From assembly GCF_009193185.1 (NCBI RefSeq), contig NZ_VUKF01000018.1, forward strand, positions 1 to 64,000: 64,000 nt of DNA, given 5' to 3'. Each line of letters starts with the position of its first letter. Positions within the stretch are counted from its first letter, which is position 1. Below, in pieces: positions 318-6,838 of the stretch. Source of the DNA: Georgenia thermotolerans. Its GTDB lineage: Bacteria; Actinomycetota; Actinomycetes; Actinomycetales; Actinomycetaceae. Position numbers and translations under genes: made by a program. Under the pieces are notes generated by a model, which was given only the letters and a program-made list of their open reading frames with translations, was not told the DNA's origin and ran no database searches.

Positions 318-1565
318 TACTCCACCTGGGAGGCCTCCCGCAGGGACAAGGCTCCTCGGACACTAGAGGCCGAGCGGGAACGTTATGACTCCCTCATCTC
401 CCCCACATTTGGTAAGTCCGCGCTGGGCCGCATCACCTACGAGGACGTGGTCAGGTGGTCAATCGAGATGAAGGCGTCCAACGGTGAGGTTGCCGGACAG
501 ACCCGCCGCAGGGATGCGGTACGGCTTCTGAAGAGCGTGCTTGATGCTGCGGTGGATTCCGGCCTCATCCTGCGCAACCCCGCTAGGACGAAGTCCGGCA
601 AGACGCCATACATGCCGAGCCGATCCAAGACGAAACCGCACCGGTACCTGAACGACGAGCAAGTGGCACGCCTTGCTGACGTCGCGGGAGACCAGGCGGG
701 TCGGCTCATCCGGATCGCCGCCTACACCGGGCCTCGCTGGGGAGAACTGACAGCCCTAACCGTGTCGGATGTCGACGTGCTACGAGGACGCCTTCACATT
801 CGGCGTGCCTACACGCGCCTTGACAGCGGCCAACTCCTCCTTGGGGACACCAAGACCCACGCCAACCGGTATGTCGTGGTGCCCATCCCCCTGCGGGGCC
901 TCCTTCAGGCACAGCTCGCAGACAAAGGGCCTCACGATCTTTTGTTCTCGCAGGGAGACGGCAAGGCTCTGCGTCGCGAGAACTTCACGAGCCGCCACCT
1001 CAGCACTGCGGTCGAGACGGCAGGCACGGCTGTGAGGACGCTGCAGGCCCTTCTATGCCTCCCTGAACGGCAGCAGACGGGTGTGTACGGTTCCAGCACC
1101 ACGCAGGCCGTCAGGGCGCTCCAGGAGCGCTCAGGCATCCCTGTGACAGGGCTCGTGGATGCAACCACATGGACACACATCGAGCTAGCAGATCGGTCCG
1201 CTCGTTCTGACCTGACTCAGGGTGAGAAGGTCAAGCGCACCAACATGTTCAAGAGGCTACGTAGATGCACCCTCGCGGAGGGGGCCGAAGACTTCGAGCC
1301 ACTCACCTTCCACGACCTCCGGCATACCGCCGCGTCACTCGCCATCCGAGTCGGAGCAACGGTGAAGGCGGTCCAGGAGATGCTCGGGCATGCCTCGGCG
1401 CAGGAGACGCTCAACACCTACGCGGGGTTGTTCCCAGACGAGCAGGATGCTGTTGCCGATCGCCTTGCGGCCAACATCGTGGCGCCCTCTGCCCACTATG
1501 TGCCCACTGGTGACGGACACCAGCATGAGGAGGCACCGACCGAGCGACGCCTACAGGCTGTCTGA
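318..1565 (+). pseudogene. Tyrosine recombinase (integrase), 5' end replaced by IS21; contains an inserted peptidoglycan-binding-like domain
   Basis: The frame is open from the IS terminus (318) to the stop at 1565 and encodes 415 residues without a proper N-terminus. A GTG at 447 could start a 372-residue product. Numbered from there, catalytic residues are R97 (TGPRWGE), H289/R292 (FHDLRHT), H315 (LGHAS) and the nucleophile Y325 (NTYAGLF), so the catalytic domain is complete. The region before 447 reads as an integrase core-binding domain (LISPTFGKSALGRITYEDV). Residues 196-243 (1032-1175) do not belong to the fold: they match the peptidoglycan-binding PGB1 pattern (TGVYGSSTTQAVRALQ, then GLVDATTW). 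The stop lies 17 bp from tRNA-Arg, the usual place for an integrase using the tRNA 3' end as attachment site. G+C is lower than in neighbouring genes. The truncated product may be inactive. Confidence 0.8.
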
Positions 1566-2463: not shown

Positions 2464-3888
2464 TCAGCGGTTGCCGCGCACCTCGACGAAGTTGTCGGCC
2501 ACGGCCGCCGCGACCCGGTGCAGGGCCTCGCGGGTGGGCCGGCGCAGCTGCTCGACGGCCGTCTGCGCGCCCTTCTCGAGCATCTCGTCCCAGGGCACGC
2601 TCAGCACGTGCGCGCACCGCTTGGTGAAGTGGGCCTCGATCTTCTCCAGCGGCACCCCCACGCCCGGGCGCACCCCGTTGATGACGACGACGGCGCGCTC
2701 GACCAGGTCGCCGTGGCCGTGCTGGTCGAGCCAGTCCAGGGTCAGCGCGGCGGCTCGGGCGCCGTCGAGCGCGGGGCGCAGGACGAGGACGAGCTGGTCC
2801 GCGTCGGCGATGAGGCCCTGGTTGGCGCTGTCGAGGATGCCCGTGCCGGTGTCGAGCAGGATGAGGTTGTAGAAGGCGTCGAGCAGCGTGATGACCCGGT
2901 GGTAGGACGCCCGCGTCAGGGCCAGGGAGATGCGCGGGTCGTCGTCGGAGGCGAGCACCTCCAGCCGCGACTCGGGCGCCTGGGAGGTGTAGCCCTGCAG
3001 GTCCGCGTAGGTGTGGATCCGGTCCAGGTCGCCCAGCACGTCGGTGATGGACCGGTGGGTGGGCCGGGTGTGCCCGCGGGCGAGGCGGTGGGCGAGGTTG
3101 CCCGCGTCGGGGTTGGCGTCCACGGCGATGACCCGGTCGCCGCGCTCGAGGGCGAAGGTGCTGCCCAGCGCCAGGGCCAGGGTGGTCTTGCCGACGCCGC
3201 CCTTGCGGCTCATGACCACCACCCGGCGCGAGCCGGTGATGGGGGCGCGGACCCGCTCGAGGACCTCCAGGTAGCGGCGCTCGGCCGCGCCGGGGCGCGG
3301 GCTGATCCGTCCGCCGGTGAGGACGTGGACGGCGTGCTGCCAGCCGAGGGTGGCGGCCGGCCGCGGCGGCGGGAACATCTCCGCGTCGGTGAAGGCCGCC
3401 GCCGTCAGCGGGAGGGGCAGGCCGGGCAGGTGGTCGGCGTCCGACGGCGCCCTCGCCGGCTCCCGCGCGGGGGCGGTCCGGGCGGGCGCCGGCGCTTCGG
3501 GGGCCTGCTGGGCGGCCGGGGCGATGGGAGGGGGCGCGGCTGCCTCGTCCGCCGGGGGCGCGGGGACGGCCGGTGCGGCCACCTGGTCGACCGGTGGGGC
3601 GGCGGCCGGCGAGGGCACGGTTGCGTCGTCGGCCGGGGGCCCGGGGACAGCTGGTGCGGTCACCTCGTCGGCCGGCGCCGCCGCCGACGGGGCGGGGGCG
3701 GGCGAGGCGGGAGCGGCGGCTGGGGCGGCCGCTCCGACCGAGCCCGAGATGACCCGCCAGCCGTCCCAGCCGCCCTGTCCGGGAGGCAGTGGCCGGGCGG
3801 GTGGGGTCGGGCCGTCCGCCGTCTGTGTCGCGGCGGTGCCGGCGCGGGCGCCGGGAGTGGCGGCATCGCCGGGCCGGGGCTGGACCAT
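2464..3888 (-). CDS. EspI-like MinD/ParA-type ATPase (internal start within the longer frame)
   Basis: Starting at ATG 3888 this gives a 474-residue protein. Residues 1-180 are low-complexity Pro/Ala-rich and include a tandem duplication of about 27 residues (73-99 and 100-126, sharing APAVP-x-PPAD). The C-terminal half is a deviant-Walker ATPase: KGGVGKTT at 229-236, AVDANPDAGNLAHRL following, and LILLDTGTG as the switch region. The sequence before the P-loop (AERRYLEVLERVRAPITGSR) resembles EspI-type ATPases of actinobacterial type VII secretion, as I recall that family, but no EccC, EccD or WXG100 gene is visible nearby. The start is chosen because AAGGAGGT lies just upstream. Its role here is unknown; by analogy it could drive or regulate export of the small peptides. 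Confidence 0.6.
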   Translation of the reverse strand: MVQPRPGDAATPGARAGTAATQTADGPTPPARPLPPGQGGWDGWRVISGSVGAAAPAAAPASPAPAPSAAAPADEVTAPAVPGPPADDATVPSPAAAPPVDQVAAPAVPAPPADEAAAPPPIAPAAQQAPEAPAPARTAPAREPARAPSDADHLPGLPLPLTAAAFTDAEMFPPPRPAATLGWQHAVHVLTGGRISPRPGAAERRYLEVLERVRAPITGSRRVVVMSRKGGVGKTTLALALGSTFALERGDRVIAVDANPDAGNLAHRLARGHTRPTHRSITDVLGDLDRIHTYADLQGYTSQAPESRLEVLASDDDPRISLALTRASYHRVITLLDAFYNLILLDTGTGILDSANQGLIADADQLVLVLRPALDGARAAALTLDWLDQHGHGDLVERAVVVINGVRPGVGVPLEKIEAHFTKRCAHVLSVPWDEMLEKGAQTAVEQLRRPTREALHRVAAAVADNFVEVRGNR

Positions 3889-5277
3889 GATCGACCTCCT
3901 TGTCGTGGTCGCGTGGCGACGCACCTTGGTGATGGGCGCCGGACGCGGGTGGCGGGCGCGCCAGGCCCCGGCCGCGCGCCGCGCGGGGAGCAGCGCCATG
4001 ACCGCGGTGCGCTGGACCACCAGCGCGGCGCCCAGGGCGGGCAGGGCGAGGACCACCATCGCGAAGACCGCCCCGAGGAGCGGCAGGGGTGCGCCGTCGG
4101 CGACGGCCTGCTGCGCCGTCGCCAGGTGGGTGCGCACGGCGTCGAGCGCCACCCGCACGATCTCGGGCAGGTTCCACACCAGCACGGCGAGCCCGAGGGC
4201 CAGCGTCGGCACGACGACGAGGACCCAGGTCGTGACGAGCCGGCGGGCGCGCGGGCGCAGCTCGGCGACGCGCGGGTGGGCCGGCCGCCCGGGCACCAGG
4301 CTGCGCATCACCGGGCCGACCCGCGAGAACAGGTCGGGCACCCCGGCGAGGTCGGCGAGGACGTAGTAGCCGTCGAAGCGCAGGGTGGGGATGAGCTGCT
4401 GGACCATCTGGAAGTGCGTGATGAGGATGTAGAGCACCAGCACCTGGGGCCCGCCGAGCAGGTAGGCGGCGCCGGCGGCCAGCAGCCCCCAGACGTTGAA
4501 GTACAGGCCCCCGAGGTCGGTGCGCAGCCGGCCCGCCCGGTCCAGCCGGTAGGAGTCCGTGACGTCGGTGTAGAAGGCGGGGAAGACCAGGTAGACCCCG
4601 GCCCCGATCCGGCCGGGCGTGGCGCCGCCGTACCGGCACGCTGTCGCGTGACCGAGCTCGTGGAAGAAGATGCCCACGGCGGTGAGCAGGTACAGCGCGG
4701 CGATCAGCCCCGGCGTGGCGAGCGTGGTGGCCAGCGCCGCGAGCGCGTCGCTGCGCACGAACAGCAGGACGTCCATCACGACCAGCGCGGCGAGCGCCAG
4801 CACGACGACGGGCGGCCAGAACAGCGGCGACAGCGTCCCGGCGGCGAACCGGACCGCACCGGCGGGCAGCAGCGTCAGCTTGGCGCGCAGCGCGAGCAGC
4901 GGCGTCGCGCGCGGGGCCGGCCGGGCGGCGGGGGCGGCGGCGTCGGTGACCAGCCCGACGGGCGCGAGCTTGGTCGTCACGAGGCGGTCGAGCCCCTCGA
5001 CGCTGAGGCGACGACCGAAGGCGGCGCTGACGACGTCGGCGGCCTCGGCGGGGCTGCGGTCGGCGGAGAGCGCCATGAGCACGAGGTGGACGAGCTCGGA
5101 GACCTGGACCACCTGGCCGTCGCCGCGGCGCACCAGGAACGCCGGCGCGGTCAGCCCGGAGTCCTGGACCTGCCCGAGCGACTCCACGCCGTCGGCCCGG
5201 CGCCACCGGCGCGAGCCGGCGGCGGCGTCGTCGGCCGTGACCGGCGGGGCGTCCGGCCCGCGGGTCTGCGTCGACAT
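2464..5277 (-). CDS. PqqD-like RRE / M50 membrane metalloprotease, frame continuous with an EspI-like ATPase
   Basis: The frame is open for 937 residues from ATG 5277, which has a GAGGGGG ribosome-binding site. Residues about 35-110 look like a PqqD-type RiPP recognition element (LVRRGDGQVVQVSELVHLV, ending LAPVGLV). The next part is a polytopic site-2-protease (M50): HELGH at 206-210 in a membrane helix, and a second metal-ligand motif RFDGYYVL with D302. More hydrophobic segments lie near 155-175, 185-205, 260-290, 345-370 and 400-425. After residue 463 the frame runs straight into the ATPase described separately, with no stop. An internal ribosome-binding site exists, so the cell may make a fusion, a separate ATPase, or both. 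By family, the protease would cut small peptides at the membrane and the RRE would bind their leader. The two peptide genes at 5366 and 5603 are the obvious substrates. Confidence 0.75.
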   Translation of the reverse strand: MSTQTRGPDAPPVTADDAAAGSRRWRRADGVESLGQVQDSGLTAPAFLVRRGDGQVVQVSELVHLVLMALSADRSPAEAADVVSAAFGRRLSVEGLDRLVTTKLAPVGLVTDAAAPAARPAPRATPLLALRAKLTLLPAGAVRFAAGTLSPLFWPPVVVLALAALVVMDVLLFVRSDALAALATTLATPGLIAALYLLTAVGIFFHELGHATACRYGGATPGRIGAGVYLVFPAFYTDVTDSYRLDRAGRLRTDLGGLYFNVWGLLAAGAAYLLGGPQVLVLYILITHFQMVQQLIPTLRFDGYYVLADLAGVPDLFSRVGPVMRSLVPGRPAHPRVAELRPRARRLVTTWVLVVVPTLALGLAVLVWNLPEIVRVALDAVRTHLATAQQAVADGAPLPLLGAVFAMVVLALPALGAALVVQRTAVMALLPARRAAGAWRARHPRPAPITKVRRHATTTRRSIMVQPRPGDAATPGARAGTAATQTADGPTPPARPLPPGQGGWDGWRVISGSVGAAAPAAAPASPAPAPSAAAPADEVTAPAVPGPPADDATVPSPAAAPPVDQVAAPAVPAPPADEAAAPPPIAPAAQQAPEAPAPARTAPAREPARAPSDADHLPGLPLPLTAAAFTDAEMFPPPRPAATLGWQHAVHVLTGGRISPRPGAAERRYLEVLERVRAPITGSRRVVVMSRKGGVGKTTLALALGSTFALERGDRVIAVDANPDAGNLAHRLARGHTRPTHRSITDVLGDLDRIHTYADLQGYTSQAPESRLEVLASDDDPRISLALTRASYHRVITLLDAFYNLILLDTGTGILDSANQGLIADADQLVLVLRPALDGARAAALTLDWLDQHGHGDLVERAVVVINGVRPGVGVPLEKIEAHFTKRCAHVLSVPWDEMLEKGAQTAVEQLRRPTREALHRVAAAVADNFVEVRGNR
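3895..3901 (-). promoter_or_regulatory. Strong internal ribosome-binding site before the ATPase start
   Basis: On the minus strand AAGGAGG precedes ATG 3888 by six bases, although the protease frame is still open here. Such a perfect Shine-Dalgarno sequence inside a reading frame argues for separate translation of the ATPase. Confidence 0.6.
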
Positions 5278-5365
5278 CCCGTTCCCCCCTCGTTGCGGGA
5301 AGCCGCCGCCCGGCGGGCACGCCAGCGCGCGTGGCGGACCCACCGGGCGGCGGACCGGCCGGCGC

Positions 5366-5566
5366 CTAGTGGTGCTGCCAGGTGCCGATCCACTGCTGGG
5401 CGTTCGCCGCGGCCACCGAGTGGTCGGAGAACGCGTTGATGGCGATCGCCATGTTGACCCCGATGACGGGCGCAACGTTGATGTTGAGCCAGAGGGTCTC
5501 CCGCGCGGGGAGGACCTCCACCGCCTGGTCGTCGAGCTCGGGGTCCAGGATCACGTGATCTGTCAT
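5366..5566 (-). CDS. Small peptide B (66 aa), putative RiPP-type precursor
   Basis: A 66-residue peptide paralogous to the product at 5603. The N-terminal part is acidic and carries VEVLPARETL. A hydrophobic middle follows (VAPVIGVNMAIAINAF), then the conserved C-terminus AAANAQQWIG followed by TWQHH. There is no cysteine, so lanthionine or disulfide chemistry is excluded. ATG 5566 is chosen because AAAGGTGAG lies at the right distance; a GTG two codons upstream is possible. The gene sits 36 bp after peptide A and 88 bp before the RRE-protease gene. The LPxRETL segment shared with peptide A would be the natural leader recognised by the RRE, but this is inference. I know no characterised family for it. 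Confidence 0.75.
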   Translation of the reverse strand: MTDHVILDPELDDQAVEVLPARETLWLNINVAPVIGVNMAIAINAFSDHSVAAANAQQWIGTWQHH

Positions 5567-5602
5567 GACCACTCACCTTTCGCAGAGGTCAGGTCGTGCA
5601 GG

Positions 5603-5800
5603 TCAGTGCTGGTTCACGCCGATCCACTGCTGGGCGTTGGCGGCGGCGATGGAGTCCTTCGTGAAGAAGTTCACCGCCGTGGCCGAGTTGTGAGCGAACA
5701 CCGCCGAGAAGTTGTTGTTCTTGAAGTAGAACAGCGTCTCCCGTTCCGGCAGCAGCTCCACGTCCTGGCCCTCGATCTCGCTGATGGTCAGCTCGCGCAT
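5603..5800 (-). CDS. Small peptide A (65 aa), putative RiPP-type precursor
   Basis: A 65-residue peptide with a strong ribosome-binding site (GAGGGGGGTGA) before ATG 5800. It shares VELLPERETL and the C-terminal AAANAQQWIG with peptide B but differs between them: its middle is rich in Asn and Phe (FYFKNNNFSAVFAHNSA) where B is aliphatic. The pairing of constant ends with a divergent middle and the small size are typical of multi-component precursor peptides. It contains no cysteine. It is the first gene of the minus-strand operon that continues into peptide B and the RRE-protease. The asparagine codons make it locally less G+C-rich than its neighbours. Function is unknown; a secreted signal, bacteriocin or modified peptide are all possible. 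Confidence 0.75.
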   Translation of the reverse strand: MRELTISEIEGQDVELLPERETLFYFKNNNFSAVFAHNSATAVNFFTKDSIAAANAQQWIGVNQH

Positions 5801-5861
5801 CTTTGTCACCCCCCCTCGTGATTTCCGACCCGTGACGAACGTGCCCAGTGAGCCGGGTGCC

Positions 5862-5890
5862 CTGTTACTGGCGCGTGACAGGTCCGTCAC
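5862..5890 (-). promoter_or_regulatory. Possible promoter of the small-peptide operon
   Basis: Read on the minus strand, GTGACG (5890-5885) and TAACAG (5867-5862) are 17 bp apart, giving a start about 55 bases before peptide A. The divergent intergenic region (5801-6073) also holds GTGAC-N6-GTCAC over the -35 element and a doubled CCCGATCCG near 5938-5955, either of which could bind the divergent regulator. Confidence 0.35.
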
Positions 5891-6073
5891 CGCGCCCGCA
5901 CCACCGGCGGGCGCTCGCGCCAGGACAGCGTTTCGCCCGATCCGCCCGATCCGCGATTTCATCCTTGACGGTGGAGTGACAGGTGGGGATCGTGATGCTT
6001 GTCGCCCCGGTCGGCGACAGGTGAGGCCGGGCGGCGCAGGCCGCGAAGTCGGGTCGAGGGGGACGCACCGACG

Positions 6074-6838
6074 ATGGACAGCGACGCGATCGCGACCACC
6101 GCGCCACGCTGGTCGCTGCGGCTCTTCGACGGGTGGCAGCTGCGGTGCGGGGACGCCGCGGTCGTGGTGGCCTACCGCGAGCGCCGCCTGCTCAGCCTGC
6201 TGGCGCTGCAGGGCGAGCGGCCCCGGGCGCACCTGGCGGGGCTGCTGTGGCCGGAGAGCGAGGAGGGGCGGGCGCACGGGAACCTCCGCGCCGCCGTCTG
6301 GCGCATCCAGCACCTGCTCGACGGGGTCCTCGAGGAGTCCCAGGGGATGATGGCGCTGGCCCCGGGGGTCCACGTGGACGTGCACGACCTGCGCGGGGTC
6401 GCCCACCAGGTCACCGCCGGCCAGGACCCGCCGGACACCGCGCGGGCGCTGCAGGTGCTGCGGCGCGGCACCCTGCTGCCGGGGTGGTACGACGACTGGG
6501 CGCTGGAGGAGCGCGAGCAGCTCCACCAGCTGCGGCTGCGGGCCCTCGAGGCGCTGGCGGACCGCCTCCTGGACCACGACGAGCTGCACGGGGCCCTGCA
6601 GGCCGCGATGGGGGCGGTCCAGCTCGAGCCGTTGCGCGAGAGCGCCCACCGCGCGCTCATCCGCGTCCACCTCAAGGACGGCAACCACGTCGAGGCGGTG
6701 CGGGTCTACCGGGCGTTCAAAGAGCGGCTGAGCGAGGAGCTCGGCATCTCCGTCTCGCACCAGATCGTCGATCTCATCCGGCCGCTGCAGGCGGTGCACC
6801 CCCGCAACGACCTCCCGCCGCCGGACGCGGTCCCGTGA
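6074..6838 (+). CDS. SARP-family (BTAD domain) transcriptional activator
   Basis: A 254-residue protein with the two-part layout of Streptomyces-antibiotic-regulatory-protein activators. Residues about 12-105 form an OmpR-like winged helix (LRLFDGWQLRCG at the start, RGERPRAHLAGLLWPES-like core, then NLRAAVWRIQHLL). Residues about 115-245 form the all-helical bacterial transcriptional activation domain (LLPGWYDDWALEEREQL, HRALIRVHLKDGN, YRAFKERLSEELG). There is no ATPase or sensor domain, so it is a small DnrI/RedD-type SARP. SARPs normally switch on nearby peptide or antibiotic genes. It is divergent from the small-peptide operon with 273 bp between, making it the likely activator of that operon. 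ATG 6074 is preferred over longer starts because a GAGGGGG stretch precedes it. Confidence 0.85.
   Translation: MDSDAIATTAPRWSLRLFDGWQLRCGDAAVVVAYRERRLLSLLALQGERPRAHLAGLLWPESEEGRAHGNLRAAVWRIQHLLDGVLEESQGMMALAPGVHVDVHDLRGVAHQVTAGQDPPDTARALQVLRRGTLLPGWYDDWALEEREQLHQLRLRALEALADRLLDHDELHGALQAAMGAVQLEPLRESAHRALIRVHLKDGNHVEAVRVYRAFKERLSEELGISVSHQIVDLIRPLQAVHPRNDLPPPDAVP

Follow-up and report, generated by a model that had tools for sequence, protein, structure and literature searches.

Membrane proteases of the M50 family that carry a RiPP recognition element (RRE; RiPP, ribosomally synthesized and post-translationally modified peptide) are known for carrying out the final step in pathways to modified peptides. 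We describe here a locus of Georgenia thermotolerans, within a 64,000-nucleotide stretch of DNA (contig NZ_VUKF01000018.1, positions 1 to 64,000; hereafter the window), in which two small peptides, A and B, precede a single protein that joins an RRE-like domain, an M50-type membrane protease and a ParA/MinD-type ATPase, next to a gene for a Streptomyces antibiotic regulatory protein (SARP). The nearest curated models for the protease are the daptide RRE-peptidase (MpaP; NF041824) and the YydH/LiaK (EpeP) epipeptide protease (NF058609), both matched far under cut-off. The available part of the daptide study reports that RRE-fused site-2 proteases were found near short frames and that one set was pursued (PMC10036551); the present family may lie among the sets that were not. 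For EpeP, a cut-and-export role is proposed in the accessible portion of the epipeptide work (PMC10885120).

With the daptide peptidase, as the accessible text presents it, the window protein shares a putative N-terminal RRE-type domain and a membrane M50 domain, several short leader peptides alongside and an origin in the Actinomycetota. However, the daptide model (daptide_HExxH) covers residues 47–368 with 88.6 bits (4.5e-25) against a cut-off of 300, the protease here is fused to an ATPase, and the window peptides lack the ELExMEAP leader and the invariant C-terminal Thr that the same text gives for daptides (PMC10036551). The YydH/LiaK protease has an M50 core in common with ours, but the match reaches 50.7 bits against a cut-off of 225, and the window protein adds an RRE-like domain and an ATPase and has no recurring partner enzyme. 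Its ATPase resembles ParA/MinD-type (deviant Walker) ATPases in the KGGxxKT motif, with MinD-type, site-determining chains as PDB relatives (6riq, 4v03, 4v02), but differs from them in being joined to a membrane protease. We found no description of the combination of a peptide pair, an RRE-M50 protease and an ATPase in the open-licence literature; 'M50' is absent from the main texts of two RRE papers (PMC12710340, PMC7470986), and the part available of a later daptide paper (PMC12338566) contains nothing on such a protease. An earlier note on this DNA had proposed a candidate undescribed ribosomal-peptide system, and our results support a regulated peptide and leader-protease system with no description in the libraries and literature we searched. 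We regard the locus as RRE-M50 peptide maturation in a new form, although it has a fair chance of being a separate kind of extracellular assembly system.

Relatives were sought by scanning named genomes, and the 80 best of 305 were retained, so that all counts refer to the closest members of the family. Adding the window and four loci retrieved by position, and removing three duplicates (L032, L036, L039), gave 82 unique loci. Protease and ATPase occupy one frame in 43 of these, from 11 genera or labels of metagenome-assembled genomes (MAGs): Nocardioides 20, Pseudarthrobacter 6, Georgenia 4, Arthrobacter 4, Intrasporangium 3 and six labels with one each. This count is made up of 41 plain fusions plus L053 and L073, in which the ATPase match overran the frame end by 6–12 nt; L090, with a shortened frame, was still counted as fused, and L046 and L049, in which the protease match did not fit one frame, were counted as standalone. 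All 43 fused loci have exactly one A and one B peptide, so that conservation of the peptides beside the protease, a check set in advance by the earlier note, was confirmed. All 43 also have a SARP gene less than 4 kb away (divergent in 40). By this comparison, a putative operator, the SARP, peptide A, peptide B and the RRE-like/M50/ATPase protein form a conserved unit.

Around this core the family varies. In 17 loci, from Sinomonas, Paenarthrobacter, part of the Arthrobacter set and other sources, the protease stands without an ATPase; of these, 13 have a single B peptide with two to four of type A, 15 a SARP and 12 a Cys-repeat protein discussed below. The other 22 are mostly MAGs (Acidimicrobiia, Thermoleophilia, Frankiaceae and Chloroflexi among them) together with mycobacterial-type relatives, and have same-family peptides in 17 cases, a Cys-repeat protein or domain in 17 and a SARP in 1. 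Altogether 182 peptides were counted, from 77 of the 82 loci. They were required to contain the LPx[RKQ] motif, do not include long tandem-repeat substrates, and were typed as A or B by patterns of our own making (three Georgenia A peptides were assigned by hand); the underlying profile was iterated three times, with possible drift in the last round. The locus is patchy, occurring in the window genome and in 3 of the 8 Georgenia congeners searched. Of 394 genomes of the class, 58 contain the wider protease type, all classes pooled, at E ≤ 1e-40.

Gene order in the window is peptide A, peptide B and the long frame (5277→2464) on the minus strand, with the SARP gene divergent. This agrees with the earlier note, which had predicted two paralogous peptides of 65 and 66 residues, followed on that strand by an M50 protein bearing the HELGH and FDGYY motifs, and a small divergent SARP. 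The note had placed the ATPase in a separate following gene; instead, the 937-aa frame is free of stops between protease and ATPase, as are those of the fused relatives. The M50 hallmark, HExxH with a downstream DG motif, is present, and H206, E207, H210, D302, G303 and Y304 are invariant in 78 of 78 aligned proteases. The Pfam M50 model (PF02163) matches 10 of the 78 at E ≤ 0.1, the window protease not being one of them. For the N-terminal domain, the note's assignment to PqqD/RRE held as far as weak matches in a few relatives: Pfam PqqD matches 2 of 78 proteins at E ≤ 0.1, and among 38 N-terminal domains ApyI matches 4, PqqD 2 and three further PqqD-type models one each, in a nine-family NCBIfam list that also includes unrelated families such as FolE models (3 and 1 members). 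A profile search of the PDB with this domain returned no RRE chain and four chance matches only. Support for a PqqD-type RRE is weak, and RRE identity is the weakest structural claim we make.

The ATPase carries the deviant Walker A motif KGGxxKT in 43 of 43 aligned sequences (31 under a stricter pattern). The description 'EspI-like' in the earlier note found no support: the closest curated matches are ParA and MinD, the Pfam model PF01656 is matched with 43.9 bits vs 25.4, and we found no type VII link, with no match to the type VII protein EccB in this genome, a weak test since control genomes were silent too. The likeness to EspI presumably lies in the Pro/Ala-rich stretch before a ParA-type domain, and the difference in the fusion to an M50 protease. 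An ATPase tree (L090 left out) shows a deep split, on a very long branch, between 12 Micrococcaceae/Microbacteriaceae rows and the other 30; because of such long branches, we draw no conclusion from it on separate fusions. In 12 fused loci (L045, L048, L052, L053, L071, L073, L075, L077, L084, L086, L033 and L055) the ATPase domain is 28–34% identical to that of the window and the protease domain 52–58%; the divergent ATPase of these loci is either a fast-evolving domain or a second, separate fusion. The linker contains an in-frame start with GGAGG/AGGAG in 13 of 41 fused loci, among them all five of the Georgenia group, which comprises four Georgenia and an Actinomycetales MAG; in the window, the ATG at 3888 has a strong ribosome-binding sequence. 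Of the ATG codons in linkers, 11 of 76 have a GGAGG/AGGAG sequence, compared with 11 of 378 outside them (Fisher p 2e-4, on rows that are not independent). Found in 13 of 41 fused loci only, the internal start is a side feature.

Peptides A and B are paralogous (54% over residues 9–65). That pN is below pS in nearly all pairs (172 of 176 for A, 83 of 83 for B; median dN/dS 0.47 and 0.24) shows that the peptides are translated and evolve as proteins; the two closest Georgenia differ in too few codons to be informative. Each consists of a leader of about 23 residues (8.24 charged on average) with the pattern ELxxExxELLPxRE, and a core of about 43 residues (1.40 charged on average, charge-free in 51 of 182) rich in Ala (20.5%), Asn (11.8%), Val (10.2%) and Ser (9.9%). 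The window leaders carry ELLPERETL and EVLPARETL. In an 88-row peptide sample, L19, P20 and N38 are invariant. Core conservation follows a period of 2 in type A (79 peptides), in type B (60) and in a group of 38 peptides from MAG loci (p4), with 0 of 2,000 shuffles reaching it in each case; a helical period is absent in all three groups. Because of this pattern, we favour the cores being extended strands with one conserved face. Residue volume also alternates in B and p4 (p 0.01 and 0.04), though not in A (0.18).

No Pfam or NCBIfam model tried reached its cut-off with the peptides (the search did not extend to PHROGs or PADLOC), no PDB relative appeared at E ≤ 10, and a plasmid search with peptide A gave no match. 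Homology to curli or chaplins, suggested by the N-A-Q spacing, was rejected (0 of 88 peptides match at E ≤ 1) and serves as analogy only. There is a gradation from these peptides to tandem-repeat frames 235 and 273 aa long. One member, at 2793–3002 of L092, has a different core (QGNGNTNQAGFLNISVLNGNLSGNQ) that by eye resembles Asn/Gly-repeat fibre proteins.

A Cys-repeat protein of about 250 aa is found in 58 of the 82 loci, near the protease or as its C-terminal part (the latter in 4 of the 58 and in L024–L027), and lies near 29 of the 43 fused loci. Its Cys count is 6 in 33 of 63 aligned rows and 4 in a further 22. The core profiles of A, B and p4 all align to its last repeat in one common register (E 2.8e-4, 8.6e-5 and 1.4e-3), scoring 24.8, 27.2 and 21.4 vs 12.3, 21.2 and 13.2 for reversed profiles; 0 of 200 column shuffles reached the real score for each. 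The motif common to cores and Cys-repeat protein spans ~30 residues. Period-2 conservation recurs in the last repeat (p 0.002), is weaker in the first (0.019) and not significant in the second (0.22). A second RRE-M50 system lies in the same genome on contig C28 (L026, 7018–10218). There, a 235-aa frame that has this leader and several copies of the core precedes an 830-aa protease frame ending in a C-terminal Cys-repeat domain.

Neighbouring genes were called with a home-made gene finder over about 8 kb on each side and grouped by BLAST clustering rather than by family-model scans. Near the 43 fused loci, the Cys-repeat protein recurs in 5 of the 11 labels by this measure, and beyond it, the protease, the SARP and the peptides, no gene family occurs in more than 3. 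This holds for modifying-enzyme, exporter, immunity and receptor families, in line with the earlier note, which had seen no modifying enzyme or ABC exporter at the locus. Of the enzymes of daptide clusters, no decarboxylase, aminotransferase, methyltransferase or DUF-RRE family passes the same threshold (clustering, without a scan by daptide models). ABC-transporter genes are found near some loci (see below); in the Nocardioides maps they lie on the opposite strand, and we read them as lineage-specific neighbours. With these set aside and no other family recurring, we propose the protease as the release step.

Upstream of peptide A is a triple repeat of RTNACG with an exact 11-bp period. This repeat was noticed by eye among nine promoters, and the motif was defined on part of the data later counted; its mean best score at period 11 is 12.70 vs 9.19 (sd 0.07) in shuffles, and no other period between 8 and 15 exceeds 9.80. 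A score of at least 12.5 is reached in 34 of the 43 fused loci and also before 12 of 36 A peptides of other loci. At a score of at least 13, the 799 kb covered by the 43 loci contain 35 sites, a few of which count once per strand, all of them 74–122 nt before the peptide A start, in 24 of the 43 loci; reversed sequences gave 0. A shared promoter 7-mer did not rise above shuffles. Published SARP operators of the PimR type, in the portion of the source available, likewise consist of three repeats spaced 11 nt apart (heptamers with 4-nt spacers; PMC5930380), but the repeat here, RTNACG, has another sequence.

The exact pattern has three occurrences across the genome: at the operon, 80 nt before a ScyD/ScyE-family gene (L122/L124, C37:52973-52999; family assignment 251.8 bits vs cut-off 80) and 93 nt before a second gene (L123/L125, C73:13685-13711), which we take to be tatA-like. 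The first of these two sites is also present in congener G003 and the more distant G007, the second in G003. Among eight congeners, site numbers are 3, 4 and 2 in those that carry the operon and 0, 1, 0, 0 and 1 in the five that lack it; the backwards pattern occurs in none, and some sites have no recognisable gene downstream. The ScyD/ScyE-family and tatA-like genes are thus possible further members of a SARP regulon. For the SARP itself, Pfam shows the BTAD domain and no sensor domain. A small protein of 67–90 aa (cluster 18) sits beside the SARP in L033, L035, L040, L045, L053, L077, L082 and L086.

Taken together, these observations lead us to lean, with modest confidence, towards a SARP-activated operon that makes two leader-bearing, unmodified peptides, which are released by a membrane machine like the daptide peptidase and act outside the cell. 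The SARP would bind the triple 11-bp repeat and switch the operon on; the leader would dock on the N-terminal RRE-like domain, and the membrane M50 domain would cut near the leader–core junction, freeing the ~43-aa core outward. The ATPase domain, which the internal start might additionally yield as a free protein, could gate or power the handling of the near-uncharged core, replacing an exporter. Outside, the cores could act as strand-forming peptides, perhaps as assemblies, and in most relatives they may do so with the probably secreted Cys-repeat protein that carries the same ~30-residue motif. The steps beyond co-conservation and the operator, including product and function, are inferred. 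A more far-reaching version, which we put forward tentatively and think less probable, is a new extracellular assembly system of Actinomycetota and some Chloroflexota, in which an RRE-M50 machine, in one branch with a ParA-type ATPase, recognises and releases leader-bearing strand peptides or their tandem-repeat versions, which co-assemble outside with the secreted Cys-repeat protein of the same motif. It would amount to a fibre or surface-coat pathway that borrows RiPP maturation and not dedicated secretion.

Several observations weigh against these proposals. Core hydropathy does not alternate significantly (p 0.67, 0.47 and 0.09 for A, B and p4), so that the periodicity is one of conservation only, and the Pfam curlin and chaplin models match none of the 88 peptides. 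The window's own N-terminal domain, taken alone, matched no RRE model; the hydropathy scan gave five strong segments, any membrane topology is provisional, and the role of the ATPase is a guess. Secretion of the Cys-repeat protein is judged probable from an N-terminal hydrophobic stretch seen by eye. This protein is absent locally from 14 of the 43 fused loci; the window is without it as well, its genome having the domain only inside the second protease, and the operon therefore has no local partner. The match of peptide B to the Cys repeat is less specific, given how close its reversed control comes. Finally, an exporter may be supplied by the ABC-transporter genes (cluster 5, 20 loci) wherever these are neighbours, as in many Nocardioides and some other loci.

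The constant pairing of one A with one B in the fused loci raises the alternative that they are the halves of a two-peptide bacteriocin, matured by the protease and released against competitors. The cores are small and nearly uncharged, SARP control is usual for antimicrobial loci, and the available part of the epipeptide work ties an M50 protease, EpeP, to an antimicrobial (PMC10885120). However, no immunity-gene or exporter family recurs beyond the threshold above, the pair is not fixed in the 13 standalone-protease loci with surplus A peptides, the family extends into long tandem-repeat frames, and the core motif is shared with the Cys-repeat protein. We consider this explanation unlikely.

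Two other alternatives fare less well. The products could be true RiPPs whose modifying enzymes are encoded elsewhere in the genome, as the leader/RRE/M50 logic is that of daptides and the cores have residues open to modification (Asn, Ser and, in some relatives, Cys); yet the daptide features of protease and peptides are missing, and clustering of genes around the 43 fused loci, which did not extend to distant enzymes, gave no recurring family of modifying enzymes. We hold this to be distinctly improbable. Least probable of all, and in our estimate very unlikely, is signalling by regulated intramembrane cleavage, with peptides sensed by kin or feeding back on the SARP. M50 proteases make peptide signals in other bacteria, and a regulator is linked to the locus, but that regulator shows no sensor domain in Pfam, the cores are long, conserved and strand-like, and no receptor family recurs by clustering.

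Features of the locus in the window, with their positions and strands
Feature	Position	Strand	Remarks
Peptide A precursor	5603..5800	-	65 aa, MRELTISEIEGQDVELLPERETL...NQH
Peptide B precursor	5366..5566	-	66 aa, MTDHVILDPELDDQAVEVLPARETL...WQHH
Fused gene: RRE-like domain, M50 membrane protease, Pro/Ala-rich linker, ParA/MinD-type ATPase	2464..5277	-	937 aa, stop-free frame
RRE-like (PqqD-type) N-terminal domain, fusion residues 24-116	4930..5208	-	weak sequence evidence
M50-type membrane protease domain, HELGH and FDGYY	3898..4929	-	catalytic residues invariant in alignment
Possible internal in-frame start (AAGGAGG then ATG at 3888), would yield ATPase alone	3886..3901	-	
ParA/MinD-type ATPase domain, RKGGVGKTT	2467..3402	-	curated-model matches
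Putative SARP operator, triple direct repeat GTGACG-N5-GTCACG-N5-GTAAC, 11-bp period	5864..5890	-	
Small SARP regulator, divergent	6074..6838	+	254 aa; BTAD domain 3.3e-18 (Pfam)

Window genes were listed for the first 14 kb, and three neighbours were scanned with family models. A phage-type integrase at 447–1565 (+) (PF00589, 5e-21) has a peptidoglycan-binding domain (PG_binding_1) inserted at residues 197–244 (5.3e-11), which is unusual for a recombinase. Because it abuts a tRNA-Arg gene at 1582–1655 (−), an integrated element may end at this junction.

The locus pairs an RRE-M50 device with a fused ATPase and no recurring modifying enzyme. Two unannotated families, the peptides and the Cys-repeat protein, are thereby named, both spread over many actinobacteria, and the operator, SARP and peptides make up a clean, testable regulon. 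If the proposed mechanism is true, the logic of leader and RRE would here serve the release of plain structural or effector peptides.

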